Source: Owenia fusiformis
Lineage: Eukaryota > Annelida > Polychaeta > Sabellida > Oweniidae
Direction: 5' to 3'
Assembly: GCA_903813345.2 (NCBI GenBank)
Contig: CAIIXF020000009.1
Span: forward strand, 22,655,759-22,719,758
Length of the DNA stretch: 64,000 bases
Made by a program: the position numbers and the translations under genes
Shown here: piece by piece, positions 7,745 through 51,100 of the stretch
Numbering within the stretch: position 1 is the stretch's first letter
Layout of the letters: each line of letters begins with the position of its first letter
The notes under the pieces: model-generated
What the model saw: only the letters and a program-made list of their open reading frames with translations
Database searches by the model: none
What the model was told of the DNA's origin: nothing

Positions 7745-10700
7745 TTATAACGGTAAAACTATGTTTGATAATTGTTTAATCTGAGCGTGACAGTAAGGGC
7801 ATTCAGTCCGCTTAGCTACGCAAGAGTCACATAGTACATAGTGATTACAGGGCATTACAGCTACACTACGATTCTTTTCTTGACAGACGAGACATTTCAT
7901 AGCCGTGTGTTGGTATACCACCTGGAAGACAACAAAATTCATAACAATAACTTTTTTAACAAGGTGAAACAATTGCAACTGATATTTTTGAACATCATTA
8001 TTGAACATCGTCAACAAAATGAAATTTTGTTAATGGAGATTCCGATAGGATTTGTTAATGGCATAAGGCAACAATTTTGTTTGTACAAGAGACTACAGGG
8101 GCCCAATAGTGTCCAGTCATTGTGGTGAGAACTCAGGCTCATCTAGCAACTAGACTAACAAAATACCTTATCTCCTACATCTAGATCAATCTTCAGAATC
8201 TAGAATACCTAATCTACAGCAACTAGACCAACCCTCAGAATCTACAACCTCAGAGTCTATAACAATACCTTATCTGCAGTTACTAGACAAACCCACATTA
8301 AGACCAATCTTCAGAATCTAGAATACACAATGTGCCTTATAGCGACAAAACCAACCCTCAGAATCTACAATACCTTATCTACAGCATCTAGACCAACCCT
8401 CAGAACCGAAAATACCTTATCTACAGCATCTAGATCCATCCTCAGAGTCTGCTGCACAAGTTTCAGCTGTGGTAAGGGGAGCATCTCAAGGTCTGAACGT
8501 CGGTGTAACACATGTAAGTGTGGACCTCCAGACATTCTCTCTACATCAATCTTACATTTTCTTAGCTGATTAGTAACCTGTAAGGGAATTCATTAGAATA
8601 CATGTATGTTCAATCATATGATATATATTCACCATCTACAGCATCTAGGGTCCATAAATAGATCTAACCAATGGCTCCATATAAACAGATTTTGGTTCCA
8701 TATAAGTAGACACTCTGACCATTGAAAGATGACTCAGATCATGATTTTGACTGCAAGTAGTTCAACCAAGGTTTTAATGTATATAATGCAGGAGGATATG
8801 CTTCAAATTGAGGATTTTTGCCCCCTCCCTGTGAGTACAGAATATGCACATTTCACCTTGAAGTTGAATTAACTCTGATAACTGATGGAAAACACCTTTT
8901 TTAACTCAAATTGTAAATTCCATAAAAGTAAACCATAAAACCTGTGTATATAAAACATTTTTTGCTGAGAAAAACATCCACTGTTGTTGGACAGAGAGGG
9001 AATTCATACAGAACTCAGTTAAGTATGTGGGGTTGAAGGGTGTCTACTAGAGACAGGTGTTCACTCGAGGGAGGTGTTCACTAAGACAGGTTTTAATGTA
9101 ATATCCTATTTTGCAAAAAAGCCTCATTTTTATATTTGAATCTTGGCTATGGCTTTGATAGTTCATACCTCTTTTGGTTTGTATTGCCACTAAGAGACCC
9201 CCTTCCCCTATTGATCAATTGCATATGAAGTGTGCATACCTCTTCTTTCTGTTTGATTGCAATAATATGTTCCTCCTCAATCATCTTAACTTTCCTAGTT
9301 GCTTCTTCTGCTTCCTTCTTCCAGGCCTCACATGCCTACAATACAAACACATATTCTAAATACCATTCAATTAAATCTAGTCAAATGCTGTGCTTTGTGA
9401 ACATTTCCCTTTGGATATTGTGAGGCATCAAGATTTCTTATGGTTAATGAATGCATTCAATGCATGCACACGCAGGACCATTCAGCACAAAATGACTATT
9501 GTACAATATTTAAGGATTTAAGCCCTGGACTGAATCATTCCTCAAAAAGGTGTTATTTCAACCTTTGCAGTGCAGTTATATGAAATAATGTGTTCGGATT
9601 GGGTGGAATCTGATACACCTATGCCTTACTATGTGTGAATTTCTTTTCAAGCATGATAAAAATCAAATGTGTAAATAAACAACAATATCAGCCACTTACA
9701 CTTCTAGCTTGAGCAATTCCTTCCTCCCACGATGCCAGCTTAGCTTTATTGGCAATGAGCTCTTCTCTCAGCCTCATTATCTCAGAGTTGGTGTTGTTGT
9801 GTAGGTGTAGACTGGATGTGGAGCTTAGACTATTAGGGGTGCTCCTGGGGGAGTGATTGTTCATTATGTCGGGTAGAGCTGCTGCTGAGAATTTACCGGG
9901 ATTGGCATGACTTAGAAATGCTGCTTGAGCCTGGAATAAACAGGGATGTATCAAATTGAAGTCAATAACCTATTAGAAAAAGTTTACACTGAATGAAGTA
10001 GAATTTGCTTTGGTCAGAATCAGAATCAATAGGATATTAAAGAAAAGCTATTTGTACAATTGTAAAAACAGAATATTCTGATTCTTAAAATGAAATCCTT
10101 TACTACTAGATGACCCACCCTAGTTAAAGTGTGATTTTCCCCCAAAAATAGTTTACTAAAATGGTTAATGCACATTAAATTAATGAAACAATATTTAACT
10201 TTGTACCGACAGAATGAAATGATTTAAATTATATGTAGAATTACATTTGGAACTTAACCTCTTGAATCCCAGGCTCTAAAATTGGCATGAAACCAGAAAA
10301 TTTTTCATTTTTTGCCACCTTTTGACATTTTATTAAATACCTATACAACTTTAGATGCTCAACTTAGTAAAATTGGACGGCAGAGATCATTTCTACACGT
10401 TTTAAAACAATTTTTGTGTAAATTGGATGAAAATTGTTCAAATGAGAGCAATTTTTGTGAAAAATATTGTGACGGATTTTCTCGTCCCTCTGGGCACCAG
10501 TCTTATTTCATTTGTGACGGATATATCCGTCACTCTGGGTATTCAAGAGGTTAAGAGAGCATGTAAAAGTTTTTCAAAGTACTCCCCTGCTATTCTTGTG
10601 TTTTTCCAGTATTGATTAAATCTAGATATTTATACATGTACTACATATCACATATACATGTACTACATATTACATATAAATGAACTCACCTGTTCCAACT

Positions 10701-13700
10701 GCTGTTCCTGTTTCTGCTGTTGCTGTATGTGCTGAGGTACAAAGGCAGGAGGAAGGGAGGGGAGGGATGAGGGGGACTCGGGTAGACTGCCCACACTTCC
10801 TGCCTGGAAGCCTCCAAAGCCACCCTGACTGCTTGAGGGTATAGCCATTGGCACAGAGGAACTACCTATATAACCTATGGAGAAGGAGACACTCGATTAG
10901 TACTAAACTATGGAATTAAATCATATTCACATGTAACAAATAAGTTCTGTATAAATAGACAAGGCATTAACATGTCACTACCTGCCATTTGTTACAGACA
11001 CCAACCACCGAACAACACCCACAAGAAAGTTGGAGACCATTTATATACCATTTATTTAATGTTCCATTCGATCCTTGAATATTTGAGTAAATGATTCAAA
11101 TGTAAAGAAACGGGTGTTATTTTTTCTGAGAGAGTACTTTGTATTCTTTTCCCCAGCAGAGTCAGCTAATCACGAATCAAAACATTCAGACATACACATG
11201 TGAAATAATTGTACTGTATTACCCAATAATGTAGTGTAGCTTACCCGTAGATGAGAATCCTGCACTAAGTGAGCTACTGACAGAGTTTGTTTCATTGTCA
11301 TTCTCTAGTTCTTTATCTATAGTTGAGAGATCAAACTCATCTATATTTAATTCCTCTAAAGTATTGGCTGAAACATAACAAATATAAAACTATTTCAACA
11401 TCTAACTTTCATAAGCTGTCACTTTTCATTGTTTATTAGGTTGTTTCACTGCAGTGTGAAAATGAAATATTAAAATGACATAATCATGTCACGCTTCACT
11501 TGTACAATGCCATTCGCACGAAAAACTAATATTTCAAGGTTGTTGTACTAAACATAAATTTCCAATCATGTTCCACATTCCCTTTACAAAATTCTGCAAA
11601 TTATTTTGAGTAAATTTCAAATCTGGCATTTAAGTTGAGAATTAGTGTGCGTCTTACCTATTACTGATTCCACTGTATCTCCAGCTGGGTAGAAAACAGG
11701 GGCATGTGGTGACATGGAAGATGAAGATGTTGCACTAGAGCCTATTCCAGATGTCCCACTTGATGCGCTAAATGAGTTTGTTACGTTAAGATTATGAAGA
11801 AGTAATAAGTTTTGTTTACGTTTTGCCTTTTCTGCTAGATCTATAGTGACATCTTTTTCTATTGCTTGAAGTTGTTGCCGCAATTTAATCTGAAATATAA
11901 TATGAATAAACAGAATATCACTACATGTGTATTTCATTCTTGTAAATTTGGCTATAGAATTAAACGAGGAATATAATAATTAACTGAATGAATAGATTTC
12001 ATCAGGAAGTTGATATATTGTTTTGCACATTTTGTCTAGATAAACAAAACTAAGACAAAAACAATCTCCTTGCTAAAATCTCTTTATCACGGGGGTAAAG
12101 CCGACCCGATGATGCAATGAGCTTGCTCGGCGGTATTATGACTGTATCACGGGTCTTAATGTATAAGTGTGCTCGGCGGTAGGTTCAAACAACGCGGATC
12201 CTCAAAGCATGTGCTCATGGTATATTCGTGTTTTAACACCCATGTTTATGTCCTTAAAGCAGGGAAAGTTGGGAGGTTAAGACATTGACAAGGTTACGAT
12301 GCAAGAATAACTTCTGTCCATATGCACATACCTGTGGGTCTTCTCGCTCAGACCCAGGGGCCTTTAAATATGCACTCCCCGAGTCTGATGCAATACTGCT
12401 TGACGTGCTTCCTGAACGACCCTTCCCTATTGGCTCTGGGATAATTGTATGATGCATTGAGTTATTGGAGTTAAGATTTGATGCGGTGTTAGTTACTGTA
12501 CTAGTTGGCTGCAAAAGAAAAAAACAATAGAATACTTTTTGTTAATCAATACATCATATTTTGAAATTTTTCATAAATTAGAATATTTTTTAGTACTTCA
12601 CGTTAGATGGAACTAAATCAGAAATAAATTTTGTCAATAAAACAGACACTAGCCCAATTCAGACCTACAGTAAGAATTTTGTTTTTTATGTAATTTATGG
12701 GTGTTTACTGTTTAATGAAAAATATCAGTCCTACGAGAATTCTGAACTCCCTTATTGCAACCCATATAGAATGAAAAAGAAAAAACAAATTAAATCAAAT
12801 AACACTCACCAATGAACTATGATCAAATATACTAACCATAGAGCTATGATTAAATATAGAAGTAGGTTGCTGTTTATTTGAGGATGAATCAACAGGCTTA
12901 TTGTTGTTATGAGCTGGGGCCAACAGCTGAGGCGGGTGCTCATCCTGGAAGTAGAACAAACAACAATGAATACAAGGCATTAACATGCAAAATGTCACAA
13001 CTTGCCATTTGTTTCAGATGACCTACACCAAACACTGACCAGCGAAAACCGGCCACTGACCACAGTAATACTTCCCCTTCAATGTACATGTATGTGTTTC
13101 ATCAGAATATCTGGCAACCGTCAATATTATTGGAAATTATAATTTTAACATGGACCATGGAAACAGATGACAATAGATTTTGACAAAAATTGACTATTGC
13201 CTGCTTCTAGTGAAGCCAAAGATTTTAAACTGGTATGAAAAACTATTGAATTAGTATTCTTGCACTGAGTTGCATGAACACTGACCTCTCCAACTAGGAT
13301 CTACTTCCCCTTCCAAGATGACGAGTGTGTATGGTAGAGCTTGATTATATGAGTATCGATAGTGTCAGTAAAAAAGTTTTGAAACAATTAATATTAAGAG
13401 TAATAGATGTTTTTAAAGGATTAATTCTTAAATAAAATTAAGAATTATAATTACCTGTGTGGTTTGCTCTGAATCATCCTTATTGCCATTAGTATTACTA
13501 TTGCAAGATACTTCGCCATTAGTGGTGCCACCTGGGAGAGCACTGAAGAACGCAGCTAGAGAATTCTCCATTGGCAACTCACGCTGTGATGTCATTTCCT
13601 CTGAAATAGAAAGTCATAATAACAATATTATTAATTTGTTATATAAAATTATTTTTTCAAATTCAATAAAAGTTGAACGGAGACCACAGCAAAAACAGCA

Positions 13701-21427: not shown

Positions 21428-21600
21428 GTCAATATTCATTTGGACTGCGCAGGTCAATTACGCAGGTCTGTTTGTGAATTTAATTGGTCGATAGCAATCA
21501 CGTGGTCTGAGGTACCAATGGGAAATTCGATACTTGTTTACAACACTAGCAGGGAACAGGATGCGAGACAGGCGGGGAGACAGGGATGATAGCCCGCGGA
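21428..21600 (-). promoter_or_regulatory. Probable UNK promoter region
   Basis: Directly upstream of the UNK start codon, richer in GC and CpG than its surroundings. It holds two CCAAT-type motifs (AATTGGTC near 21483 and ACCAATGGG near 21515) and the E-box CACGTG near 21500. I see no TATA box. The call rests on position and motifs. Confidence 0.5.
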
Positions 21601-23154
21601 CGATAGACGTATGTGGCTGTTCTGGGCTACCCAAGTGTTCAGACTCTTGCCCAACTGTTCCATGTGTTTTGACAACCCAAGTGTTCCGAGTTCACTTATC
21701 ATATCTTAAAATTCACAAGTCAAGAGCACTGGCGGATCTGGGGGGGAGCCTTTAGACTATATCCTATTTAGTCTGAATTATATTCAGACTATAAGGCACC
21801 TATGTTAAAGTTTGGTAATATTAAATATTTGTTTACAGAGGAAGTGCCATTCAAAATGGTCGATTGGGTAAAATTAATTTTCACATTTGTTAATTCAACT
21901 AGCTTTATTTCCACTTGACAATATGCTGTGTGTTACTTTTTATTGCATTTAATTGTACCTTACTAGTGTTTATTTTATTGAAGAAATTGTTCCTCCAATT
22001 GATAATTTTGTGCAAAAAATTTCACTGCAATTTCCACAGGAAAGTAGTACATCATAACAGACTGACTTCTAGTCAGTCTGTTGGATACATACTAGGGGCA
22101 GCCTTGGGTGGGCCCAGAAAAAATGGGCCCCCAAAAAAATTGAGCAAAAACGGCCTTTTGGTCATTACTGGGCCTTATGATTTAGACCCACTTTTCGGTT
22201 TTAGGGGCCCAATTTTTTTTCTCTGACCATAAATTTGGGCCCCTTTGTTGGTTCCCAGATTCGCCCCTGAAGAGAATTGTTGCTGAAAAAATGGTAGAAT
22301 GAAGCGAGAGAGTCTTAAAATGTTGGCCCTTTGAAAGTTGTAACTCAATTTTTAAAAATATGAACTCATTTTTTAAAAAGGCCCATTTCCCAAAAATGAG
22401 GCATATTCCTGAAATTGTGACCCAGCCTAAATATATTGATATATTCTGGGGGGGGGGGTGCAAGATTAGTCTGTATCCGACAGACCCAGAGACAGACCTA
22501 GGATTCATTTCTTCAGTCCATTCTTTGACTGTTGGCCTAAAAGGCCCTGGCACGGGATAAGGCGAAGCGGCGATACAGAAAAAATTAAATGGAGGATAAT
22601 GGTCCATGAGGGAATCTCCAAAGAAAATTCATTTTTAAAGTTGATAATTTTTAAAACTACATTTTTTTTAATTTTACATGATTTCAAATATGATATCGCT
22701 TTGGCTAAATTTTGAATGCCATATTACATAAATCAAGATTATTTCTACTTGCACTTGTGAATGCTGCATGTCTTGGAAAGTTAAATTAACCATTTAAATC
22801 ACGATTAAAGACGCACATGAAAAAAACGTCTAATGTCTCAGTTGTTGTAAGAACAATTTCATTTTTGTTAGTCACTTTGGATCATGCATGACGAGAAAAC
22901 GCTAATAACATAAAATTATGTTCACTATGGTATGGAATGTACTAACGCTGTCTGTCTTTAAAATCACGTCGTCATCTTTTTCTAGGTAATACAATTGTTT
23001 TTCAGCTGTTTAACGTCAATCTGATAAAAACTACATTCAATATGTCAAAAATAGCTTTCCTAGGGTGTACTTAAAAATTATAAACTTTGATCCTGACAAG
23101 TGAACGCACGTTTAATCAAATCATTTTATGAGAAATACGCATGAAATACGTAAA
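21601..23154. other. Intergenic between UNK and GGPS1, repeat-rich
   Basis: No gene supported. At 22080-22260 there is a stretch rich in GGGCCC and GGCCCA phrases; a related stretch stands at 24380-24510. The frames seen across it on both strands come from this low-complexity sequence. Any non-coding first exon of GGPS1 could lie in this gap, but I cannot place it. Confidence 0.4.
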
Positions 23155-25426: not shown

Positions 25427-25474
25427 CTTTCCTATGCTCCTACTTTTAACTATTTTTCAGTGACCTTTTCAGAG

Positions 25475-30100: not shown

Positions 30101-33100
30101 ATCTTTCACAAGTGATATTCCACGAAGCCCGAAGGGCAAGTGGAATATCACCTTGTGAAAGTGCTACAGGTATTCACCGAAAATAGAGTGAAATATTTGT
30201 TTTATTATATCACTGTCTAGCTAAACATCCCTAATATTATTAAGTCATAGGTTAACATTGAAATACATATATTTCTACTCGGTTCGTATGCCATTTTGAC
30301 TTACACTGAACTAAATCATTTACACTGAACGAAAACAAATTCTTTGAAAATTCCCGGGAGCGTGGGATATCGCTAGATATCTCACGGTTGTCTTATCTGA
30401 TTAGCATTGCCATTGAATATCGCCAGATATCCCACGACATGTGACCCGGTTTTGACCAATCATACTGTCGCTAGCTAGATAGTGATATAATAACTAGCGT
30501 TATTATATCACTATCTAGCTAGCGACAGTATGATTGGTCAAAACCGGGTCACATGTCGTGGGCTATCTGGCGATATTCAATGGCAATGCTAATCAGATAA
30601 GACAACCGTGAGATATCTAGCGATATCCCATGATCCCGGGAATTTTCAAAGAATTTGTTTTCGTTCAGTATTAATAATTTAGTTCAGTGTAAGTCAAAAT
30701 GGCAGACGAACCGAGTAGATTCAATGTATTTCAATGTTAACCTATGACTTAATAATATTAGGGATGTTTAGCTAGACAGTGATATAATAAAACAAATATT
30801 TCACTCTATTTTCGGTGAATACCTGTAGCACTTTCACGAGGTGATATTCCACTTGCCCTTTGGGCTTCATGGAATATCACTAGTGAAAGATGTACAGGTA
30901 TTCACCTCAATAGAGTGAAATATTTGTTCAATATCCGACGCTCCCGGGAATTTTCATAGAATTTGTTTTCGTTCAGTGTAAATAATTTAGTTCAGTGTAA
31001 GTCAAAATGGCAGACGAACCGAGTAGATTCAATGTATTTCAATGTTAACCTATGACTTAATAATATTAGGGATGTTTAGCTAGACAGTGATATAATAAAA
31101 CAAATATTTCACTCTATTTTCGGTGAATACCTGTAGCACTTTCACGAGGTGATATTCCACTAGCGTTATTATATCACTATCTAGCTAGCGACAGTATGAT
31201 TGGTCAAAACCGGGTCACATGTCGTGGGCTATCTGGCGATATTCAATGGCAATGCTAATCAGATAAGACAACCGTGAGATATCTAGCGATATCCCACGAT
31301 CCCGGGAATTTTCAAAGAATTTGTTTTCGTTCAGTGTAAATAATTTAGTTCAGTGTAAGTCAAAATGGCAGACGAACCGAGTAGATTCAATGTATTTCAA
31401 TGTTAACCTATGACTTAATAATATTAGGGATGTTTAGCTAGACAGTGATATAATAAAACAAATATTTCACTCTATTTTCGGTGAATACCTGTAGCACTTT
31501 CACGAGGTGATATTCCACTTGCCCTTTGGGCTTCGTGGAATATCACTAGTGAAAGATGTACAGGTATTCACCTCAATAGAGTGAAATATTTGTTCAATAT
31601 CCGACGCTCCCGGGAATTTTCATCGAATTTGTTTTCGTTCAGTGTAAATAATTTAGTTCAGTGTAAGTCAAAATGGCAGACGAACCGAGTAGATTCAATA
31701 TATTTCAATGTTAACCTATGACTTAATAATATTAGGGATGTTTAGCTAGACAGTGATATAATAAAACAAATATTTCACTCTATTTTCGGTGAATACCTGT
31801 AGCACTTTCACAAGGTGATATTCCACTTCCCCTTCGGGCTTCGTGGAATATCACTTGTGAAAGATGTACAGGTATTTACCTCAATAGAGTGAAATATTTG
31901 TTCAATATCACGTGACTTCCTGTGAATATCAGATGATATTCACCGGTCCGACTTAGTCCAGTGTAATTTTTTAATTCTATAATACCTGGTAGTACATTGT
32001 TATGATTATGATTAATTAGACATTAATAGTCTGTTACTCCATTAATGTGAGTGAGGAATATAACACTGAATAATAAAACAAAAATTTAATTCTATTTTCG
32101 GTGAATACCTGTGACACTTTCATTTTCACTTTGTGGAATACCACTTGTGAAAGATGCACAGGTATTCACCTCAATAGAATTAGATATTTGTATAATATCC
32201 AATGATTGTTAAATCCCTAGCAATCTGATAAGCCCAGGTGAGGTAAATATATTCTGATTGTATTTTCGCGATCACTTCCTGTGTGAAATAAAGATGGCAG
32301 CCAACTGGAAATCATTAGCACTGCATTTTTCACACATATGATGGCAATTTATTTTTCACATGGTATTTGCTATACATATCTCAAGTTAATAAAGTGTTCA
32401 CTGGTTCATGATAGATAACTTCCATAGATTACATGTCCATATGATGTCATATGATGTCTCCAACTTTGGCGATTGGTGTCTGGCATACATTGTCTGTAAC
32501 AATTTCTTAAATCTGATTTAAGATTTGAACTCACAATATTGTGACGAACTAGGTGGTGGCATTTTCTTGTTGTATATGAATATACTTGCAAATTCAAAAT
32601 TTGCTCATAAGTAGGTTGCAGCTAAGCTTGATAGACAATTTTGTTTTTTTGATCAGATTTTGTGAAAGATCACTTTATATCATAAAGTTGTTTCATGCAA
32701 TTAAATCTTATTCTGCTTATTTTAAAACCAGTGTGATATATCAGTTTCTATATACAGCAGATAGACAGGTAGATGGTGTTTTTGTCTGGCCAGAAACACT
32801 AAAGTCAGTTCAACCTTGATTTATTACTTTTTTTCCAAATGGATTGTTTTAAACCTCCTTATAAATCAATTTCAGAAGGTTTTTATTTTACCAATAGAAG
32901 TGGTTACATATAGTCTTCAACTTTTTTTGTGAATGGTGTTCAGTATGGGGTCAGTAACAACATTCAGCATCTGTAACTTTGTTTGGCGATTGGCCTCTGT
33001 AATAATTGACAGGTGGTGTCATTTTTTATCTTAATGTCTTGTTTAACATAATGTTGATGTGAATTTTATTTAGCAATTTAACAAAAAGGTTGGCTCAGGA

Positions 33101-39100: not shown

Positions 39101-42100
39101 CAAACTGCATATCAGCACATTTTCATAATATCTTATGTTTAGGTTTTGACAATTGAATTGTGCCAAGTTTCAATGCCCCAACATATATATGGCATTCCTC
39201 ATATTATTTACACAGCTAACTATGTATACTTCATAATATTGAATGTTGAGGTTTAAACCATTGAATTGTGCTATATTTCAGTGGCCCACCATATATGGCA
39301 TTCCTCATACCATAAACACAGCTAACTATGTATACTTCATAATATTGAATGTTGAGGTTTTAACCATTGAATTGTGCTATATTTCAGTGGCCCACCATAT
39401 TATGGCATTCCTCATAACATAAACACAGCCAACTATGTATACTTCATAATATTGAATGTTTAGGTTTTAACCATTGAATTGTGCTATATTTCAGTGGCCC
39501 ACCATATATATGGCATTCCTCATACCATAAACACAGCCAACTATGTATACTTCATAATATTGAATGTTGAGGTTTTAACCATTGAATTGTGCTATATTTC
39601 AGTGGCCCATCATATATATGGCATTCCTCATACCATAAACACAGCTAACTATGTATACTTCATAGCTTTAGACAAAGTACAGCAACTTGGTCATCAAGAT
39701 GCTACCAAAGTATTTACAGGTGAGACCCGTTTTAGCATTTTGCATTTTTTCTAAATTCAATATATTCAGGAAATCACAAGAGAGTTCTATAATTCTAATA
39801 GGTGTAATATGGTAAAGCTATACCTGACAGGTGCAAGATATAAATTTACAAAGATTCCATTTATGCATCACATGTTATTTCTAACATTTTTATTAGTACT
39901 TTATGGGGGGGGGTTACATTTTCTAATCCTAGAAACAAAGACTTTATCATAGACTTTGCAATCAAAAAATAAACAATTTTTTCAGAGCAATTATTAGAGC
40001 TACATCGGGGTCAGGGTATGGATATATACTGGAGGGATGCTTACACATGCCCCACAGAAGAAGAGTACAAGAGAATGGTTTTACAAAGTAAGTGTAATCT
40101 TAAAATAATCATATATACTAGAGGGATGCTTACACATGCCCCACAGAAGAAGAGTACAAGAGAATGGTTTTACAAAGTAAGTGTAATCTTAAAATAATCA
40201 TATATACTGGAGGGATGCCTACATATGCCCCACAGAAGAAGAGTACAAGAGAATGGTTTTACAAAGTAAGTGTAATCTTAAAATAATCATATATACTGGA
40301 GGGATGCCTACACATGCCCCACAGAAGAAGAGTACAAGAAAATGGTTTTACAAAGTAAGTGTAATCTTAAAATAATCATATATACTGGAGGGATGCCTAC
40401 ACATGCCCCACAGAAGAAGAGTACAAGAGAATGGTTTTACAAAGTAAGTGTAATCTTAAAATAATCATATATACTGGAGGGATGCCTATACATGCCCCAC
40501 AGAAGAAGAGTACAAGAGAATGGTTTTACAAAGTAAGTGTAATCTTAAAATAATCATATATACTGGAGGGATGCCTATACATGTCCCACAGAAGAAGAAT
40601 ACAAGAGAATGGTTTACAAAGTAAGTGTTATCTTAAAATAATCTATGATTATAAAACATGCATATGCAGACACCTCTTTAATCTGAATACCTCTCAATCT
40701 GAACATTTCTTTTCATATTTTTTAAGCTACAATTACTGTAAAACCTGCGAGCAAGGAACGCTCTTCAGACTGTTCCTTATTGACAGGTGCTCCATATAGA
40801 GAGGGTCCATACTTTGGGCCAACTCAAATAGATGATAGATTACCATATTGAAGAACCTTCAAATGGGAACACCTGTTGTCCTGCCAACCTTTTTGCTTTT
40901 CTTATTGGCGGTCTGATTAGACATGTTTTACTAGTATAATTATCTTAAAATAATCTATTACATGCAGTATCTAATCCGAGGCTTCATAGCTTGACATTCA
41001 GTTGTTTAACATACTCAGTTGAAATAGATATACAATGAATGAATCTTTGGAGCTATAATTTAATTAGACAGAAATGCAAAATCCTGTATTCATTAATTTG
41101 TATTTTAGAAACTGGTGGTTTATTCGGCCTGGCAGTTAGATTGATGCAGCTCTTTAGTCAGAATAAAAGGTATGGAACGTATTCCTTCTCATGTTTTGCA
41201 ATTAAGTGTTATTAAGAACCACAAGATTAATTCTGATTGGCCAAAGAGAAATATAGAATGTCTAGCTATGGGTGAATATTTATCTTATACATGTATAGGG
41301 GTTTCACTAGAAATTCTCACAACAGGCTAAATTTTTTTTTACATAAATAAATGAAAACAACAGGTAAAATTAATGGATAGCATTTTAACATAGAAAAGTC
41401 CCTAAAAACAACAGTCGATTTTGTGAAAACAACTGGTGAAAATTGCCTGTTGCCTGCTGCATATGAAACCCCTGCATGTATATTAATGATATAAATGTTT
41501 CTCTAGAGATATGCCCTGGGAGATATGCATCTCCATATACTGATGATATCTTTATTTGCAGCAACCTAAAACCTTTATTGGACAGTCTAGGTCTTTATTT
41601 CCAAATAAGAGATGACTTTGCCAACCTATACTCAAAGGAGGTATGTTACCTACTGGAAATAAATAAATTTAACATTAACTTTTAAATTGTTGTATAATTT
41701 GTATAATCATATACTGTATGTCATTTTAATGTAATGTACTTTCAAAGATGTCACTTCAATATTAAAGAGATATTCAGTCAGACATATTGAAATGCCTTCA
41801 TAATTAAATACTAATATAATCATCTTGACACATTGATAATTTAAGACATATAATACAGGCTCTGGGCTCGAACTCTGGCCAATTTTTTTTCAAAATCATC
41901 TAGTTTTTTTCCATTGCAGTTTTCAAGTGATTTTGGGCCCAAATTGTCAAATGTGAACCCCCCTGAAATTTTTTGAAAAGTGAACACCCTCTTGGCTACA
42001 GGGTGTCCCGAAAGTATGGGCCCCCCCCCTAGGCAGACATATTCCAGTGTCCTCATAGTATGTGTCATATATCATTTTAAAGCTTATCCAAAGTTACATT

Positions 42101-43710
42101 GATTTGCCAAGTATCATGGTTTAACTCCCAAATGGGAAAAAGTTACAGGCATTTCAAAATTTAGTGTTTGGTCAAAATTAAGTTCAATTTTACACCAAAT
42201 CACTCGTCAATGTGTCCTCCCGGGCCATCTTAACACTAGCAATTCTTTTTGGGTCGGATGGATATTGAGTTGGAAAAAGAGAAAGGTGAGGGTAGAAACT
42301 CTAAGGAAACTCTTCTAAAGTCCCTTAACAGGTTTTAATAGGGTTATAAAATTCCACACCCCTATTTTAAGGGCTTTTAAGGTCATATCTGAAAATAATT
42401 GCTGCTGTTAACATGGCCAAGGGGGGACACATTGACTAGTAATGTGGGGTAAAATTGAACTTTATTTTGACAAAACACTAACTTTTAAAATGACTATAAC
42501 TTTTTCCTATTCGAGAGTTAAACCATGATACTTGGCAAATCAATGTAACTTTGGATAAGCTTTAAAATGATATATGACACATACTATGAGGACACTGGAA
42601 TATGTCTGCCCAGGGGGGGCCCCATACTTTCGGGACACCCTGTATGGCCTGATATTATGGTAACATGTGTTTGAGGAAAACAAAAGTTTCTGCAAAGACA
42701 TAATAAGAGACTGCCATTGATATTGAGAAACTGTCTTGAGTTCATCATTTATTATGTCACATCATGTTGTGGTCTCCTTATTGTTATTGTGTTTGGCGGT
42801 TGGTGTTTGGCAGTCAGCATTCAATGGTTGGTGTCTGTTACAAATGGCAGGTGGTGACATTTTGCATGCTAATGCCTTGTTTTCATTTGCAGTATGAGGC
42901 AAACAAAAGTTACTGTGAAGACCTAACTGAAGGCAAATTTTCATTCCCAATAGTCCATGCAGTCCAGCAGTTCCCAGAGGATAACACTGTTATGAGTATT
43001 CTACGTCAAAGGCCCACTGATAATGATGTTAAAAAATATTGTGTTGAGCACATGAAAAATCTGGGCAGCTTTAAGTACACTCAACAAGTCCTTGTGGAAC
43101 TTGAACAAAAGTAGGTTATCTCATCATATATTTACTTAGGATTTGGGTGATAGAAATAATTTTCATGACATTATAGTAGATGTGTAAAATATATCTTGGA
43201 AGAGAAGTTGAGATTTGCCAAGTCTGAGAGATGCCACTGTCACCTTAGATGACAAATGTTATGAACTGAAATCATTTGCCATTGAAATTAATCTCAGAAT
43301 GTTCACTAATGGTTTGTGAATATTCTTATAAAGTTTAGAATTAATGATGTTCAAAAGAAATAAAGTTACTGCAATTTCTATAAAATGAAACTTTGCTTAG
43401 CTCATACGCTGCTGATACAAGTGCTTGTGTATGTTATCATATTCTTGAAATTGATTAGATGGTGTTTGAATGAATACAAAATGAAAATATTCAATAAACA
43501 AAAATCAAGTGACCTTAGTCAGATTTTGTAGCCTGACCAGAACACTACAACTATTCATCTAATCTATTTCAAAGAGATTGATTCTATGTGTAACATTAAA
43601 ATATTTTTCTTGTCAGGTTGCTGGTTCAGATCTCAGAGCAAGGAGGGAACCCCATGTTGGAGGCAGTAATAGGTGAACTAAGGGGTCTCTATATAGACCC
43701 TGACATATAA
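27102..43710 (+). CDS. GGPS1: Geranylgeranyl diphosphate synthase (10 coding exons)
   Basis: Coding exons: 27102-27176, 28611-28679, 29011-29096, 29810-29856, 39603-39719, 39986-40087, 41109-41169, 41562-41640, 42893-43110, 43617-43710. They total 948 nt, in phase, 315 residues (human 300). The enzyme adds isopentenyl diphosphate to farnesyl diphosphate to make GGPP, the donor for Rho/Rab prenylation. Exon 4 codes the first aspartate-rich motif ([10 protein letters not shown], about 76-85), followed by RRG. Exon 8 codes the second ([10 protein letters not shown]203-D204). [20 protein letters not shown] and [10 protein letters not shown] are typical of the animal GGPS1 group. The first 25 residues are longer than and unlike the human end. 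An acceptor 15 nt before the ATG (exon start 27087) implies an upstream non-coding exon. Odd: partial copies of exons 5 and 6 form tandem arrays, and a GST gene sits in intron 4 on the other strand. Confidence 0.96.
27379..27926. mobile_element. Long palindromic MITE, TTAA-flanked
   Basis: The ends are TTAAAGGAATATTCCTTGCC and its complement. Inner arms also pair (ACTTCCTG, AAAGATGGCAGC). It shares its right TTAA with the M1 copy that begins at 27923. It lies in GGPS1 intron 1 of the coding set. Confidence 0.8.
27923..28295 (+). mobile_element. TTAA-flanked MITE family M1, copy 2
   Basis: The ends TTAAAGGTGCAACAA and TTGTTGCCCCTTTAA are the best kept of the three copies in the window and define the inverted repeat AGGKGCAACAA. 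It is fused directly to the palindromic MITE on its left. Confidence 0.85.
29940..32210. repeat. Cluster of nested palindromic elements with a 666-bp tandem unit
   Basis: Two modules recur in both directions. Module A begins TTATTATATCACTATCTAGC and runs through ATTGGTCAAAACCGGGTCAC to a copy of TCAAAATGGCAGACGAACCG. Module B is a hairpin of about 140 bp with ends CAAATATTTCACTCTATT and GGTGAATACCTGTA. B hairpins lie near 30063, 30795, 31455, 31763 and (diverged) 32075. The landmark GGCAGACGAACCG occurs at 30701, 31009, 31367 and 31675, so spacing alternates 308 and 358 bp: two tandem copies of a 666-bp block. An inverted copy is near 30280. It fills part of GGPS1 intron 4. Confidence 0.85.
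32445..32575 (+). repeat. Dispersed repeat family R1 (diverged), GGPS1 intron 4
   Basis: TGTCTCCAACTTTGGCGATTG, then TGTCTGGCATACATTGTCTG and GGTGGTGGCATTTTCTTGTT. Diverged but in the same order as other copies; sense direction of GGPS1. Confidence 0.5.
32915..33055 (+). repeat. Dispersed repeat family R1, GGPS1 intron 4
   Basis: CTTCAACTTTTTTTGTGAAT, GGCGATTGGCCTCTGTAAT, then GGTGGTGTCATTTTTTATCT and TTAATGTCTTGT. Sense direction of GGPS1. Confidence 0.65.
33376..38006 (-). CDS. Sigma-class glutathione S-transferase (HPGDS-like), five exons
   Basis: Coding exons (minus): 38006-37868, 36532-36440, 35411-35296, 35009-34914, 33543-33376. They total 612 nt, in phase, 203 residues, the usual sigma length. 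These cytosolic dimers join glutathione to electrophiles; some isomerise prostaglandin H2. The N-terminal thioredoxin-like domain starts [13 protein letters not shown] with the catalytic tyrosine Y8. W39, [10 protein letters not shown] (51-60) and the Q65-S66 pair after VL are glutathione-site residues. The helical domain follows, with [11 protein letters not shown] in exon 5. The C-terminus lacks a special tail. The gene lies wholly inside GGPS1 intron 4, on the other strand. A TATA-like element is at 38108-38116; a poly(A) signal is the complement of 33150-33155. The closest named relatives in animals are hematopoietic prostaglandin D synthase and sigma GSTs; which substrate it uses cannot be told. 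Confidence 0.94.
33567..33936 (+). mobile_element. TTAA-flanked MITE family M1, copy 3
   Basis: The left end TTAAAGGTGCAACAATTAG is intact. The right end TTGTTGCCTCTATAAAT is mutated. The copy lies in the last intron of the GST gene, about 25 bp from exon 5. Confidence 0.8.
33990..34400 (-). mobile_element. Decayed mariner/Tc1-type transposon, transposase C-terminal fragment
   Basis: TACAGGGTGTCTCAAAAATG at 33993 looks like a TA-flanked mariner-type end. On the minus strand at about 34345-34225 a frame reads [10 protein letters not shown], then [13 protein letters not shown], before a stop. F-LWG-LK followed by a LE-L-NI-EI helix is the usual C-terminus of DDE transposases of the mariner/IS630 group. 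The catalytic region and the other end are not seen. It lies in the last GST intron. Confidence 0.6.
35601..35712. repeat. Short palindrome, about 110 bp
   Basis: TATGTCACTATCATTGCATA pairs with TATGTGCAACTATAGTGACATA, and TATGCCC with GGGCATA. Probably a MITE remnant; it lies in GST intron 2. Confidence 0.65.
35720..35921. mobile_element. MITE with 21-bp terminal inverted repeats
   Basis: The left end TTATAACATACCTATGATGA and the right end TCATCATAGGTATGTTATAA are inverted copies about 200 bp apart. No coding region. Confidence 0.7.
36586..36816. mobile_element. MITE with mariner-type TACAGGGTGTC ends, 231 bp
   Basis: The ends TACAGGGTGTCAAATAAATA and TATTTATTTGACACCCTCTA are inverted repeats with TA at each side. 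A half copy of the same family lies at 59340-59476. Confidence 0.8.
36900..37860. other. GST intron 1, AT-rich, no further feature
   Basis: Very AT-rich sequence with a T-run near 37400. I see no gene or clear repeat. Confidence 0.5.
38085..38118 (-). promoter_or_regulatory. TATA-type promoter of the GST gene
   Basis: On the minus strand GTATATAAG (complement of 38108-38116) stands about 105 bp upstream of the GST start codon, so transcription may begin near 38080. The call rests on position and motif only. Confidence 0.5.
38119..39119. other. GGPS1 intron 4 between the GST promoter and the exon 5 array
   Basis: AT-rich, no gene seen. This is the region upstream of the GST gene and may hold its regulatory elements. 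Confidence 0.4.
39120..39660 (+). repeat. Tandem array copying the GGPS1 exon 5 acceptor and first 60 nt of the exon
   Basis: Five units of 106-109 bp. Exon-like starts are at about 39173, then 39282, 39388, 39495 and 39603; the last is the true exon. Each unit holds intron end TTGTGCTATATTTCAG, the exon start TGGCCCACCATATATATGGC and on to TATACTTCATA, then ATATTGAATGTTGAGGTTTT. In the first unit the acceptor is damaged (CAA for CAG); the next three keep TTTCAG. Copies lack a donor. The distance 39495 to 39603 is 108 bp and open in frame. Confidence 0.92.
40020..40640 (+). repeat. Tandem array copying the 3' half of GGPS1 exon 6 and its donor
   Basis: Seven units of 89 bp (the last 88). Exon-end positions are 40087 (true), 40176, 40265, 40354, 40443, 40532 and 40620. 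Each unit contains the coding end from ATACTGGAGGGATGC through ATGGTTTTACAAA and the consensus donor GTAAGTGTAATC. Units differ at only one to three bases, so the array is young. 89 is not a multiple of three. Confidence 0.95.
40733..40800. repeat. Fragment of the 'ACAGTAAAACCTG' MITE family
   Basis: TACTGTAAAACCTGCGAGCA resembles the termini of the element at 51111-51294. A similar fragment, ACAGTAAAACCTGCAATAAC, lies at 43760. Confidence 0.45.
41297..41474. mobile_element. Small MITE with GGGGTTTCA ends
   Basis: The left end AGGGGTTTCACTAG and inner ACAACAGGC pair with GCCTGTTGCC and ATGAAACCCCTG on the right. About 178 bp, in GGPS1 intron 7. Confidence 0.6.
41997..42644. mobile_element. 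Foldback element with about 230-bp arms and TACAGGGTGTCCC ends
   Basis: The left end TACAGGGTGTCCCGAAAGTA and the right end TACTTTCGGGACACCCTGTA are perfect complements. The arms continue through CAGACATATTCCAGTGTCCT and GGCAAATCAATGTAACTTTG with few changes. TA flanks and CAGGGTG ends suggest a mariner-type family. It lies in GGPS1 intron 8. Confidence 0.85.
42765..42882 (+). repeat. Dispersed repeat family R1, abutting the GGPS1 exon 9 acceptor
   Basis: GTTTGGCGGTTGGTGTTTGG, then GTTACAAATGGCAGGTGGTG and TGCTAATGCCTTGT. The repeat end is followed at once by TTTCATTTGCAG, the acceptor of exon 9 (starts 42893). Sense direction of GGPS1. Confidence 0.8.
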
Positions 43711-45560
43711 CAATCAACAATGCTGCATACATGCACAAGGCACACCAGTTTATACACATACAGTAAAACCTGCAATAACTGATACACAAGCCAGTGTAGG
43801 AGATGTGGACCTATTTGGATAATGCCTGTATTAATGAAGACGGGTCATTATACAGGAAAGTGCCATAAAATGAAAATATGGAAGGAGGTTGTAACTCCAA
43901 AGGATGTCCATGCTTTCTCAGATGGACCAAGATGCCGACCAGTGATCCCTAAAAAAATCTGACTTCACTGACATGGTTCTAGTGATAAGATGACTGATAG
44001 TCGAATCACATCAAGCCAGGTATCCCTGTTTAAACAGACTATAATTTACTATACACATGGTTGTTGCTTTATACAAAAATATCAGAAGCTAAATAGTTGT
44101 GTTCAACAGGTGGACAGATTGATGGAGCAATGATATATAATGGTAGTATAGCAACTGAATATGATAACAGTTCAGTTCTACAGGTTTTACTCTATGGGGA
44201 AGAGAATTGTTGTATTTATGAAAGAAAGAGCAGATCTGAATTTCCAATTATTCATTTATTTGTGGTCGATGTGAAATGTGCAATATATATATGCCTGGTG
44301 AGGTTTCTGTAGTATGAAACTGACCCATATTGAGTATGTGGTTGAGTGTGGAGACATTTTGATAATGGTTGTTGTACCATATGAGTCAGTGGGTATCTTT
44401 CCTTGGTATTACTGGAGATCCCACACACAAGACAATGCTTTATGATACACACTGAAAATTACATGTGCTGTTGAGTCACTAAATGTTGTATATTGTTGTT
44501 ACTTTACCTCATTAGTAGCTCATTAGTAAAAATTTGTTAATTAGATTTAAAGGTGTCAATATTAGATGGCAAACTAAAAAATCAAAATCATAGAAATAAT
44601 TTCTGGTCTTCAACAATGTCAAAAGCTTTACTGAAATCTTCATTAATGGTATTCAGAGAAAAATGGCTTTGTGGCAGTTCATATAACAGAATCAAAAAGC
44701 ACAAAGTAAGTTAATTGCTCATTTTGCTTAAAAATAGTTAATTTTATGGTGTCACTTTAAGAGGGTTTTACCCCAGAGTTGAAGCACAGTTTTCAACTTT
44801 CCAGGCAGGAAAACAGTTTTAAGTGGTGTCCCTAAAAAGCATGTACTTTAATTATGCAAATACAGACCCATACCTCTGCATTATATCAGGTTTATGCGAA
44901 GGTTTAGATGGGAAAAATATGGCAGTTTGGCCTCTTCCTTTTTGTATAAATTATAATGATATCTTAATTCCAGTATAAAAATACTAATTTGTAATTGACA
45001 ATTTATTGTGAATTAATTCATTTTGCCTCAACTATGGGTCAAACCAACCTTTACTTTGTCAATGAATAATTTAGAGATTTTTGTTTGTAAGATGTCATTC
45101 ATATGTCAATTATTGCATTGTACAGATATCCATGTATTAAATGAATATTGATCCGGGATCAAAATATGAGCTCAGAAAGTGCATTTATGTAAAAAGCTTG
45201 TTCTAATTAAACAGCAATGTATTTGCACCATTATATGTAACGTATTTATACACTACAATTTATATCCGATAAATATTACATGTATTAATCATGTCAAATG
45301 TCAGAGCATGTATTAAATACATGAATCATGAATTAAAAAACAGTTTTTTGTACATTTAAGGGATTGTATAGTCTCTAGTCTATTGCAGGAAGAGTCGAGG
45401 TTTAAAACAATTTTATGATATACTAATCATTTTTGGAAGTATAATACATATACTGAATGATGTGGAGTTGGGTTTCTGTATACATTTCTGAGGGCGAATT
45501 CAATGATGCCCAGAGGATGAGTTGAACACAACCCAGGGTATCACATCTGTACCAAAGGAC
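43711..45560. other. 3' side of GGPS1; no gene seen
   Basis: Probably GGPS1 3' untranslated region followed by intergenic DNA. I see no clear canonical poly(A) signal near the stop. The short frames have no recognisable product. Confidence 0.4.
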
Positions 45561-45564
45561 AAGA

Positions 45565-45740
45565 AGGCATTACCCTGCAAAATGTCACAATCTGCCATTT
45601 GTTACAGATGCCAACCACCATACACCAACAAATACACAAAAAAGTTGGAGACTGTAACAATATGTTACTACTTCTGGTGGTGACATAACATAATTAGGCA
45701 TTAACATGACAAAATGTCACCACCTAGTTGCTCACAATAT
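45565..45740 (-). repeat. Dispersed repeat family R1, GGPS1-ASH2L gap
   Basis: On the minus strand it includes AGTCTCCAACTTTTTTGTG, GGTTGGCATCTGTAACAAAT and a second partial end GTTAATGCC. It contains the GTGGTGACA module. Confidence 0.7.
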
Positions 45741-45744
45741 TATT

Positions 45745-46215
45745 AGTTCAATCTTTGAATTTTTGAGAATTTGTAGATGATTTTGAAAAAAATTGGTCAA
45801 TTTTAAGCAAGTTGCAAAAATACCTTTTTTGACCCTGAGAATGTCATTGAAGGTGAAATCTCAATCTAATGTCAGAATTGAACTTCTGAGAACTTGTAGA
45901 TTATTTTGAAAAATTGTCAATTTGAAGCAAGTTAAAAAATATCTTTTTTGACCTTGAGAAGGTCATTGAAGGTCAAATCTTTTTTGACCTTGAGAATCTC
46001 ATTGAAGGTCAAATCTATAGTCATGGTTGCACTTTTGACAACTTCTAGATGATTTTGAAAAAGAATAGGTCAATTTGAAGCAAGTTGAAAAACAACCTTT
46101 TTGACCTTGAGAAGGTCAATGAAGGTCAAATCTCAAATCTAAAGTTATTGAAGGTCAAATCTTAAATATAAAGTCAGATTTGAACTTCTGAAAACTTGTA
46201 GATGATTTTGAAAAA
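45745..46215. repeat. Minisatellite with repeated AGGTCA / TGACCT half-sites
   Basis: About four to five degenerate units of about 110-130 bp. Each carries GACCTTGAGAAGGTCATTG followed by AAGGTCAAATC and a GTAGATGATTTTGAAAAA segment. The hexamer AGGTCA and its complement occur repeatedly. Confidence 0.8.
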
Positions 46216-46494
46216 ACTGAAATCAGTCTATATACATGTATATATCGTATCTTTTATTGACTCTTTAGATGTCATATCATGACATATTAGTCACTAAGGT
46301 AGAGCAGTTCTTCCCATTGTCGAGTTGAAGAACTGGTATCTTTATCCTGGCTAGAACCATAGACAATTCTAGCCAGCGCCAGCCTTTTATCGATTTAGCA
46401 GCACTCTAGTAATCGCCGGTATAGGTCAGCAGTCATAGGTCAAAGACAAATCACAAACAGTATTTGTTAAGTTATTGGAAGTTTTAAGAATTTG

Positions 46495-46575
46495 TTACAG
46501 ACGCCAACCGCCACCCACTGATCACCAACCACCAACCGCCACCTGCTGATCGCCACAAAAAAACGGAGACCATCA
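46495..46575 (-). repeat. Dispersed repeat family R1 (partial)
   Basis: On the minus strand: ATGGTCTCCGTTTTTTTGTG, then GGCGGTTGGTGGTTGGTGAT and GGCGTCTGTAACAAAT. Internal short GGTTGGTG repeats are clear here. Confidence 0.7.
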
Positions 46576-46984
46576 AATGGCAATATCTTCAATCTTACCT
46601 TACTTCTTGATATTCCTGTTTAGTTATTCAGATGATTTTTCAACTTACATATGGAAAAGATATTCAAGGATAGAAGTACACCTCCTCTCTATTTACCTCT
46701 TCCATTTACATTTGCCTCACATAATGTTTGATCCCAGTTTCACCTCTGATATATGTAAAGACCGAGATTCTATGATTTATGGTGCAATATATGACCGAAA
46801 ATATTATTCTGTTAATTGTTAAAAGGCAAAAATTGCATAGTGATTGAGGTCTTTGGCAATGCTCAGAATAAAGATTTGAGGTCTTTGATTCTAATATGAT
46901 TAATAAACCAGGAAAACAACTCCATATATTTGCGTTTATGAAAAGCAGTCATACAAACTTGATTATAGACCAGTAAATCAATTG

Positions 46985-47165
46985 TTATCCCATCGAACGA
47001 AGTTCGGAGGGATATAGGGAACGCCTCCATCCATCCGTCCGAGCAGTAACTCAAATACCTTTGGCCAATTTTGTACACTTATACCTCATGGGGGTAGAAG
47101 TTCTGCTTGGAAGCCGATTTTCAAAATGGCCGCTCATTTAAAAATGGCAATGGACAGTATTGCAG
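46985..47165. repeat. Second copy of the interspersed repeat seen at 3760-4350
   Basis: ATCCCATCGAACGAAGTTCG, CCATCCATCCGTCCGAGCAG and CAAAATGGCCGCTCATTT recall the 3760 stretch. Confidence 0.55.
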
Positions 47166-47354
47166 AAACATGCCAGCAAATCCAATTTTTATCACATCTT
47201 TCAGATCTTATTTGACACAAATTCTACTGTGCTACTCAGCTATCAATAACACTGATGTCAGTGTGGGTGAATTTGATATAATTTTTGTATATTCTTTATG
47301 CTGGTCTTTGAGGGCCAAGTGAGTGTACCCTAATACATATATGATCTGGTTTTT

Positions 47355-47505
47355 ATGTCACCACTACAAGTGGTGACATATTGTTATAGTCTCCAACTTT
47401 TTTGTATATGGTGTTTGGGGTTTGATGTCTGTAACAAATGGTGGTTGGTGTGTCTGTAACAAATGGCAGGTGTTGACATTTTACATGTTAATGCCTTGTT
47501 ATTTT
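47355..47505 (+). repeat. Dispersed repeat family R1, nearly complete
   Basis: Starts with the palindrome TGTCACCACTACAAGTGGTGACA, then AGTCTCCAACTTTTTTGTAT, AACAAATGGCAGGTGTTGAC and TTACATGTTAATGCCTTGT. This is the best guide to the family's full length, about 150 bp. Confidence 0.8.
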
Positions 47506-48149
47506 TTTACTCTCTTTGTAACTTATATCTATAATAGAAAACTCTAAATTGGAATACTGAACTTTTAAGCTCCCTCTCCCAGTTTTATCTCTGATCTCGC
47601 ATAAAGCCCATGAATAACATAACTTAATAGTTATATTCTATAAAAGAGTAGCATCGAATATATTTCATTTATCATTTAAATTGAGATATGTGCATACAGT
47701 ACATGCATGGTTTACATTGGAATTATCAAATAGTTGATGATCATCTCCAAAAGCTCACATTGAGTGTCTCACTACTTCGAATACACAGAATTCATCCAAT
47801 TTATTGTTGGACACCTAATGAAGTATTTTATTAGTTATGCTTTGGCAAGTGTAGATGCAATGATCTCTTTGATGAAATCTTTGTTTTGTGCCAGGATAAA
47901 CAGGGACAAGCCTCAGAGCTAGTTCTTTATAAAAGCTTTGTAATTTGAAATTTTATGAAATACTAGTCATCAATTCAGAGCCTTGTGCTAAAATAGGTGA
48001 ACTACTACACTACTCGTCTATGGGTTCGACTATATTTGATTGGAACTCTGGCTGTTTCCATGGTGGTACATGATGTCTGGCATCAGTCCTTGTATTACAA
48101 TATGTAAGCCCTTGTTGTATGGGTTCAACTGTATTAGATGTAGGTGAGT

Positions 48150-51100
48150 TCATAGAAAGTCTGGTTGCTTCCCCTCATGGTCCAAGTGGTACATCATATC
48201 TGCCATCATTTGTTCAACAACAGCCTCAGTAACCAACTCTTGCATCTGAAACATAAACAAGTTGCCTTGGAATGTGATGTGTAAACCCCTAACCTTCGAA
48301 TACAATGTGTAAAAAATAGTATCACAAGAAGTAACAATTTGAAAATGGTGGAAAGTTGTTTTTTGCAAGACTAAACAACAATTAAGTTGATTTTTACTTA
48401 CAGGCCTATAGTCTATGTCATCAGGAGGATACTTGAATGTTGGTCCAAAGTTACATACAACCTAAAACATAGAATATACATTATGAAAATATGTACATTC
48501 ATATACCACAAGTACACATAACATTTACATAATCATCAAGTTTTTAGATAAGTAGCTCTGAAGATTCGAGGGTCAAGTCTTATTTTCAAGACATTATACT
48601 TCCATGACCCTCATACCACCTGTATAAAATTTTATTTTTTCAAAAAATAATTTCCAAAAAATTCAATTTTTTCAAAAAAATCTTTTTTGTCTCATTTAAC
48701 AGATGATTTTAGGTACATATTGCTGTTGACCATTGTATATGGATATTATTCACCTGTCGGGGTGATTTGAGGACTATCCCTTGGATGATATCAATACTTC
48801 CCTCTGTCACTGCATTCCCTCAGGAAATATTGATACCCTTATGATATTCCCATATCAAATCCTCCTGGTGAATAACTTCTTTTTCATTCCATAATACTAC
48901 TGTTTTCCCAGGGAAATATGAAGGAATAAAAATCGTATTGAATCGTGTTACATGAAAAAATTGTATTGTCCCCGAGAAACAAATCGTGTTGGAGTGTATT
49001 ACATGAAAAAATCGTATTGTCCCCAGGAAAAAATCATATTGGACAATTAGGTTTATGAAGACAATTATTTGAAATTTAACTTCAAACAATGTGCATTTTT
49101 TATATAATGTTTGCATTATCCAAATGTAACATTTTACAGGGATGTGTTATGGAATAAATAGGTTATTTCTGGTCGGCATTGAATATGGGTTTTATTCCTC
49201 GGAAAATATGATATTGACCTTGGGCAATATGATATTGACACTCGGTCGCTGGGTTCCCTTGGTCGATATCATATTACCCTTCGGTCAATATCATATTGTC
49301 CCTCGGAATAAAACCCATATTCAATCCCTCCCAGTAAATAATCTATATGTATACAATATGCAATGTATAAAAAAAGAACCACTGAAGATTTCAGAAAACA
49401 GCACAACAGGCTTATAAGAAAGAGGGAAATTAAAAAAATTGTTCTGGCTCCTATAGCAGGGTTTAAGTGGGCATGATTGGTGTGCCGAACATGTCAATAT
49501 TCAATTTCTTTGAAAAGTAACTAGTACAGTGTACGTAATTAAAGAAATGAAAATCATACAACAAAAGATTAAATAAATAAAAAAGTCTGTTTTACCATTG
49601 AATATTTGGTCATTCTATACAATCTAAACATAATTCAATGTAAATAATATGAGGCACAGGTGATTGCAGATGATCAGGCATCAGCTAAGTCAACAGAATG
49701 TGGCAGAGATCATCTTTTATTTCACTTTATTACAGCAACAATGTAATATTCAAAGCGAGGGATATTCTCAAGTGCCTACATCAAGACAAACCCTATTAGT
49801 ACATCTTCATAATTGATTGAAGAATAAAGAACATGCTGACTCTTGATACTATCCCCATTAAATCTTTATTGAAAGATATCTGGATTTGTTGTTCTTTTTC
49901 CTAAACCACTTAAGATGAGGACAGCGATAATCTGTGCGCTTTTCTTTACACTGTTGGTAAGTGATTTGTATTTATTTATTATATCATTCAACAGTCTCTA
50001 TTATACAGCCCAAAAATTTGGAATGTTCTTATTTCATGCAGTTTAAAAGTAGCAAATATATATATATATATATGAACACTACTAAAACTGGTATAAGAGT
50101 ATGATTGAAGTATCAGACATGACTTTCCACATAACTGAAATGATATTTTGATGATTTATAAACCTATTTAGTTATTTAGAGAATTATGTTAATATCTCTG
50201 GCTACACATCAACATTCTATATCTTCCAATTTTCTTTAGAAGGAATTGAAAAGATTCACTTATTATCACATTTTAGAGTAATAAAAACAATGTACTGCTG
50301 TACTGTTTGTGGCATCAGTGATGTTATTAATGAAACAAAAATGATCCTTTTGTCAAGATTCAACTTGGTTCAACAATTAAATGATTGGATGCAAAAAAAG
50401 TATACCTATAACTGCAATTTTTCTGCAATTTTTAATTATACTGAGCAGATTTGTGAAAACCAACATTTTGATATAATAACCCTTTAGATAAAAGTGGAAG
50501 ACATGTTCATGCTATGTGAAAATGCAATTTGTGGATGAATGGGTTTATTTTAGATGGTAAGTGTGAAAGCAAATCCACAATGGGGCATGCCAATTGAACC
50601 TGCCCCAACAGAAACAATTGAACCTGCCCCAACTGAAACGGATGTAGAGGAAGAGCAACCAAAGGTGAGGTCATCGTCAGGGAAACAAAGGTCATTAATG
50701 AGGTCATCATCAGGGAAACAAAGGTCATTGATGAGGTCATCGTCAGGGTAACAAAGGCCTGTGATAGTGGGGATGTTTAGGGGGTTTATGGACATTGAAA
50801 CATTACTTTAAGATAAACTGCATTCTGATACTCATAGCATCTTTCTGTTTCACATGAAATATCTCAGGGCTAAGAAGAAATGAGATGTCATGGTTTATCA
50901 TGGTGGATAAACTGTAATAATTCTATGTTATAAAAATAGAACCATGGGTACTGGGCTCACATGAGAAGGTTTTAATATTTTAATATTCTATCTAAAATCA
51001 ATAATGTATTGGCACAACATAAAAATATTGAACTGAACTCTAAAGGGTAGACCATGACACAATATAACCACAATACATATGTGACGAATGCAACGGTGCA

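Follow-up and report, generated by a model that had tools for sequence, protein, structure and literature searches.

Minisatellites resembling amphioxus mirages at exon-intron junctions of the annelid Owenia fusiformis

A 64,000-nucleotide stretch of the Owenia fusiformis genome (hereafter the window; C9:22655759-22719758, in an assembly whose 525 contigs total 498 Mb, C1-C12 having 32-62 Mb each) carries tandem arrays in the genes UNK (unkempt) and GGPS1 whose repeat unit consists of an exon end, its splice site and some adjoining intron. Is duplication favoured at splice junctions in this genome, as a sequence-only reading of the window had proposed, or are these minisatellites that arose like any others and are tolerated where they lie? 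Analysis of the window and of a sample of junctions from the rest of the assembly showed that the feature is real, common and of a known kind, the mirage minisatellite, in what is probably a new lineage for it. The assembly has three matches over the cut-off to the erythrocruorin-linker family (PF16915), a family typical of annelids and their relatives.

Junction arrays in the UNK and GGPS1 genes

Arrays were called by Tandem Repeats Finder (TRF), with the same weights for the window and the genome sample and with cut-offs at scores of at least 50 and at least 100. The gene model of the window holds 75 junctions in six genes (five ends were added and one was corrected by hand), of which three are spanned by an array. 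All four arrays listed in the sequence-only reading were recovered, with units of 42, 108, 89 and 33 bp:

8162-8450, minus strand: array of 42-bp units over the UNK donor, degenerate towards 8162 (TRF and sequence)
8416-8577, minus strand: UNK coding exon with the real donor end, VTNQLRKCKIDVERM...LDAVDK (gene model, donor corrected to 8416)
39122-39664, plus strand: array of 5.1 copies of a 108-bp unit over the GGPS1 acceptor (TRF and sequence)
39603-39719, plus strand: GGPS1 exon with the real acceptor (sequence, gene model and PF00348)
39986-40087, plus strand: GGPS1 exon with the real donor, CAAA/GTAAGTG (sequence, structure match and gene model)
40022-40643, plus strand: array of 7.0 copies of an 89-bp unit over the GGPS1 donor (TRF and sequence)
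50666-50757, plus strand: array of 2.8 copies of a 33-bp unit adjoining the donor of a small gene (TRF and gene model)

The gene identities given earlier agree with domain and structure matches. UNK is identified by PF25427 (zf-CCCH_UNK) and by the unkempt structure PDB 5elh, its RING exon by PF13920; GGPS1 is identified by the polyprenyl synthetase domain PF00348 and by PDB 6g31 and other entries. No Pfam match was found for the small gene.

The UNK donor reads GCTGTAGATAAG/gtattt, with the minus-strand exon end at 8416. TRF reports 42-bp units at 8162-8244 and 8350-8450, each unit, in TRF phase, being made of 35 bp of exon end and 7 bp of intron starting with GT. Alignment finds four intronic copies, and GT is present in all four. 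A simple gene finder picked the donor of the second copy, at 8374, instead of the one at 8416. In GGPS1, the acceptor unit comprises an intron part of about 46 bp, with AG at its end, and about 62 bp of exon; the real site is in the last copy, and AG is retained in three of the four intronic copies. The donor unit comprises 66 bp of exon and 23 bp of intron starting with GT; here the real site is in the first copy, and GT is retained in all six intronic copies. In the three window arrays, the end unit with the real junction is the first for donors and the last for the acceptor. The UNK stretch has no second match elsewhere in the one assembly, and no other place matching the GGPS1 arrays was found among the 40 scored candidates.

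The proposed unit of exon end, splice site and intron was thus borne out for the UNK donor and for the GGPS1 acceptor and donor, but not for the small gene. Its exon occupies 50554-50664 and the array starts at 50666, two bases into the following intron, so that the array abuts the exon end and containment of the junction is not clear.

Three other repeats were seen in the window. A GGPS1 intron contains, by eye, a long inverted repeat at 42042-42600 (42042-42130 reversed near 42512-42600), which resembles a foldback element or one like a miniature inverted-repeat transposable element. Positions 41279-41496 hold a dispersed repeat of about 180 bp with at least 39 other copies at 79-86% identity (40 of 1907 candidates scored). 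At 31289-31909, away from modelled junctions, lies a near-identical tandem duplication of 308 bp (2.0 copies with 96% matches).

Frequency and anatomy of junction arrays across the genome

Two samples of conserved genes were drawn from outside the window. The first consisted of 160 fetched stretches, chosen by Pfam exon matches to Pkinase, Myosin_head, Cpn60_TCP1 and DEAD (241 of 348 rows used), in which 377 junctions were placed; the second consisted of 40 stretches (58 listed rows) with 93 junctions. Together, 299 exons at 200 loci gave 470 predicted junctions. Junction ends at domain borders or under the site-score threshold were skipped, and the rows left out were long single-exon matches, stop-rich rows, paralog clusters (the C3 kinases, a C7 kinase paralog and the C9 myosin exon cluster), surplus kinase, myosin, TCP1 and DEAD rows, and a kinase pair at C10:2256896 and 2257074.

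Junction-spanning arrays are found well beyond the window, at 15 of the 470 junctions (3.2%) when the score is at least 100 and at 16 (3.4%) when it is at least 50. The first sample contributed 13 of 377 (3.4%) at the stricter cut-off and 14 arrays at the looser one, and the second sample two further arrays. They are distributed over 11 gene clusters, in genes for kinases, myosin, chaperonin, proteasome, a receptor and others.

The 14 first-sample arrays with scores of at least 50 were inspected by eye. In all of them the unit consists of exon end, splice site and intron; seven lie at donors and seven at acceptors. The real junction sits in the exon-side end unit in all 14 (in L088 and L094 after a one-copy shift of the predicted junction) and the copies run into the intron, an anatomy that fits the earlier suggestion that duplicate sites are buffered. 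Unit lengths of 18-154 bp in the samples, and of 42-108 bp in the three window arrays, lie within the 10-160 bp reported for mirages. The exon fraction of the unit, by the same reading by eye, is scattered from about 0.1 to about 0.9, as expected of breakpoints that ignore the junction. The period is divisible by 3 in only 5 of the 18 arrays measured, so there is no sign of frame selection. Among 86 intronic copies found, 77 align at the site, and 74 of these retain the splice dinucleotide; copied sites are therefore not being weeded out. At scores of at least 100, arrays cover 5.1% of non-exon and 1.5% of exon bases, and exon-internal arrays in the first sample number two at scores of at least 50 and none at scores of at least 100.

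A small exon finder trained on the sampled exons recovered 295 of the 299 training exons and also served to model the junctions of the window. In 298 kb it gave 124 extra same-strand and 46 antisense predictions at cut-off 20, and 22 antisense predictions at cut-off 25. The 107 extra exons, some of them false as gauged by the antisense predictions, supplied 214 junctions, at which four arrays with scores of at least 50 were flagged against 1.8 expected. One of the four (L166) had already been counted and one (L193) belongs to a doubtful exon, leaving L127 (22 bp) and L160 (30 bp) as new.

Further repeats were noted during sampling. A 36-bp unit is repeated about nine times at the edge of an SNF-family stretch (L193:3-337), and several of the copies hold a donor-like AAAG/GTAAGA; this is perhaps the donor array of an exon outside the fetched piece. 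At C10:2256896-2257205 (plus strand), one segment of the kinase model is matched twice, with starts 178 bp apart, possibly another junction array. At C9:37986009-37994334 (minus strand), a single myosin motor segment (model positions about 18-84) is matched twelve times in tandem, upstream of the remaining myosin exons; this looks like a large alternative-exon cluster of a myosin heavy chain.

Tolerated duplication or a preference for junctions

The explanation that we consider likely is that these are minisatellites of the mirage type, which arose and grew in the ordinary way and are tolerated where they meet a junction. A segment of about 18-150 bp that straddles a splice junction by chance would be duplicated in tandem, through the kind of slippage or break repair that also produces other intronic minisatellites. 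The copy beside the exon body would go on coding and splicing, and the extra copies would be discarded because they lie in the intron; there the array would grow, shrink and partly homogenise by unequal exchange. Arrays would be found at about 3% of sampled junctions because such duplications are tolerated there, and mostly not inside exons. Scattered breakpoints, the lack of frame bias, the scarcity of exon-internal arrays and the kept copy sites all fit neutral, tolerated duplication. We infer that the arrays are mutational in origin and neutral, and that splicing probably picks the exon-side copy and proceeds correctly.

Whether arrays are in excess at junctions depends on the null. In the whole-array null, complete arrays are thrown at random; in the founder-unit null, one unit per array must cover the junction. 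For the window, three spanned junctions compare with 3.9 (P = 0.71, score at least 100) or 4.5 (P = 0.78, score at least 50) under the whole-array shuffle, and with 1.3 (P = 0.16) or 1.6 (P = 0.22), at the same cut-offs, under the founder-unit shuffle. The number of arrays in the window is thus not significantly over chance by either measure, and the claim that four cases within 43 kb exceed chance does not hold. In a test close to the one that the sequence-only reading had suggested, tandem repeats do not overlap splice sites above shuffled positions in the first 160 loci either: the whole-array shuffle gives 17.2 (95% range 12-23) for 13 seen at scores of at least 100, and 20.6 (14-27) for 14 seen at scores of at least 50.

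Several observations weigh against the tolerated-duplication explanation. Under the founder-unit null, the 470 junctions carry 15 arrays against 2.96 expected at scores of at least 100 (ratio 5.2, 95% confidence interval [CI] 2.1-10.8) and 16 against 4.31 at scores of at least 50 (ratio 3.8, 95% CI 1.6-6.9; intervals by bootstrap over 153 gene clusters). We think that this null is nearer to the biology than the whole-array null, because growth starts from a single founder unit and the junction ends up in every copy only if that founder covered it. Spanning arrays of at least 95% identity number seven over the first 377 junctions, against 0.48-0.63 expected. At scores of at least 50, arrays are concentrated in TCP1/CCT genes (9 of 89 junctions, against 5 of 288 in the other first-sample families; Fisher P = 0.001), a clustering left unexplained by uniform mutation. 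Retention of copied splice sites, at 74, slightly exceeds the 68 predicted at an assumed 0.94 per base (P = 0.017), although local alignment favours well-kept copies. Finally, homogenisation was not seen in the GGPS1, UNK and L117 arrays.

Part of this evidence would be accounted for by a mutational process with a higher rate of tandem duplication in and near splice junctions (or exons) than in introns, perhaps acting through transcription, chromatin or base composition. Tandem duplication would then be several-fold commoner at junctions than in the introns beside them, above all in some genes such as the CCT chaperonins; we regard this as possible but rather unlikely. Both founder-unit ratios have intervals over 1. 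The excess is strong in TCP1/CCT genes, where eight arrays over 89 junctions compare with 0.34 expected (score at least 100), and slower decay alone does not account for the arrays of at least 95% identity. At the stricter cut-off, the two arrays of the second sample also exceed the 0.29 expected (P = 0.036), but at scores of at least 50 the expectation is 0.62 (P = 0.13). About half of the founder-unit excess comes from the TCP1/CCT genes, and outside them it is weak: 7 against 2.6 (P = 0.017, score at least 100) or 3.7 (P = 0.08, score at least 50) over 381 junctions, and, in the first sample, 5 against 3.0 (P = 0.19, score at least 50) or 2.2 (P = 0.08, score at least 100). At the extra gene-finder junctions two arrays remain once the case already counted and the one on a likely false exon are dropped, and the whole-array shuffles show no excess in sample or window. 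Hence the local-excess argument of the sequence-only reading fails, and a weaker, genome-wide version, which rests on the founder-unit excess, survives as a hypothesis.

The TCP1/CCT arrays (in L124, L125, L127, L130, L131, L134, L135 and L140) lie in five separate genomic places. Pure intronic arrays are not denser in these genes than elsewhere, although the genes hold nine of the 14 junction arrays in the first sample.

Four candidate causes of a preference for junctions were considered and set aside. An effect of expression, suggested by the TCP1 result and predicted in writing before the sequences were fetched (more arrays at housekeeping than at tissue-type exons), was unsupported at this sample size: arrays span 1 of 47 housekeeping and 1 of 46 tissue-type junctions, and, on these small numbers, the idea of a process tied to transcription gains nothing. 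For an exon-centred hot zone in introns, pure arrays are nearer to exons by nearest edge but not by midpoint; nothing is drawn from either measure, since each is distorted by the length of the arrays and by where a stretch ends. Spanning arrays are richer in GC than pure ones in three of four cuts (0.369/0.297, 0.354/0.288 and 0.369/0.330) and no different in the fourth (0.354/0.352), a comparison that is uninformative. That junction arrays survive longer, through their constrained exon copy, would by reasoning bring a modest gain at most, and leaves the class of at least 95% identity unexplained.

That the arrays are kept by selection, as spare splice sites that insure the junction or permit alternative splicing, is in our view very improbable. 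The kept dinucleotides slightly exceed expectation, and one additional 42-bp UNK unit is open in frame; however, this UNK frame runs into a stop one copy further on, the 89-bp GGPS1 donor unit is not divisible by 3 and shifts the frame, periods are not biased towards multiples of 3, and normal splicing is reported for the cases published from amphioxus (PMC3087553, PMC3902484). Inflation of the repeats by the assembler is the least probable explanation of all: a single assembly was used, and the draft genome of amphioxus had its BflGb6 mirage assembled wrongly (PMC3087553), but copies bear their own substitutions, the pattern recurs in unrelated genes, and, if the assembly is the published long-read one (PMC9977687), its reads are much longer than the arrays.

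Amphioxus mirages and what the arrays mean

The sequence-only reading knew of no named system of this kind, but the mirage minisatellites of amphioxus match it. Minisatellite-like duplications of intron-exon boundaries were described in amphioxus globin genes, in a paper that calls their mechanism of origin unclear and that cites the Adh3 case from which the name comes (PMC3087553). The globins are BflGb6 and BflGb9 (PMC3087553), to which troponin C and PGBD5 were added (PMC3902484). Units of 10-160 bp occur at both 5' and 3' boundaries, with AG or GT in many copies; the arrays are homogenised internally with the boundary copy excluded, and length polymorphism and normal splicing are reported (PMC3087553, PMC3902484). 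The arrays described here share the tandem unit over the boundary, both boundary types, the range of unit lengths and the retention of splice sites in many but not all copies. Boundary-excluded homogenisation is matched by the L018 acceptor and the L140 donor, whose intronic copies are 0.99 and 0.97 alike among themselves against 0.87 and 0.93 to the real copy, but not by GGPS1, UNK and L117. The present cases differ in their genes (kinase, myosin, chaperonin, proteasome, receptor and others), in having a sampled frequency (15 or 16 of 470) and in coming from an annelid.

Among the matches listed in a search of open-licence literature (titles and abstract starts), no report of mirages outside lancelets was found. 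Work by Gao and Lynch and by Zhuo et al. is reportedly linked to tandem duplication that copies splice signals, and a C. elegans paper is said to concern intronic minisatellites and splicing. Genes in human segmental duplications likewise show variable tandem repeats at exon-intron boundaries, and 27 intron modifications are reported; those are recent primate paralogs with new splice patterns, whereas here the genes are conserved and the old junction is apparently kept (PMC2812944). Intron gain by tandem duplication also copies splice signals (PMC2891723; Rogers, cited in PMC3087553). In that model a new intron arises inside an exon, whereas the arrays here lengthen introns that already exist, and no new intron was seen.

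Mirages have been described gene by gene in lancelets (PMC3087553, PMC3902484), and the annelid cases would extend them beyond that group. Their presence at about 3% of sampled junctions suggests that mirages may be general in some invertebrate genomes. The opposite answers of the two nulls mean that claims of enrichment must name the null used, and junction arrays can mislead gene models, as when the second-copy UNK donor was chosen. If a process favouring junctions did operate, junctions would be a continuing supply of spare splice sites, raw material for new introns. The arrays also provide many natural experiments on spliceosome choice between identical adjacent sites, and on the growth and gain of introns.

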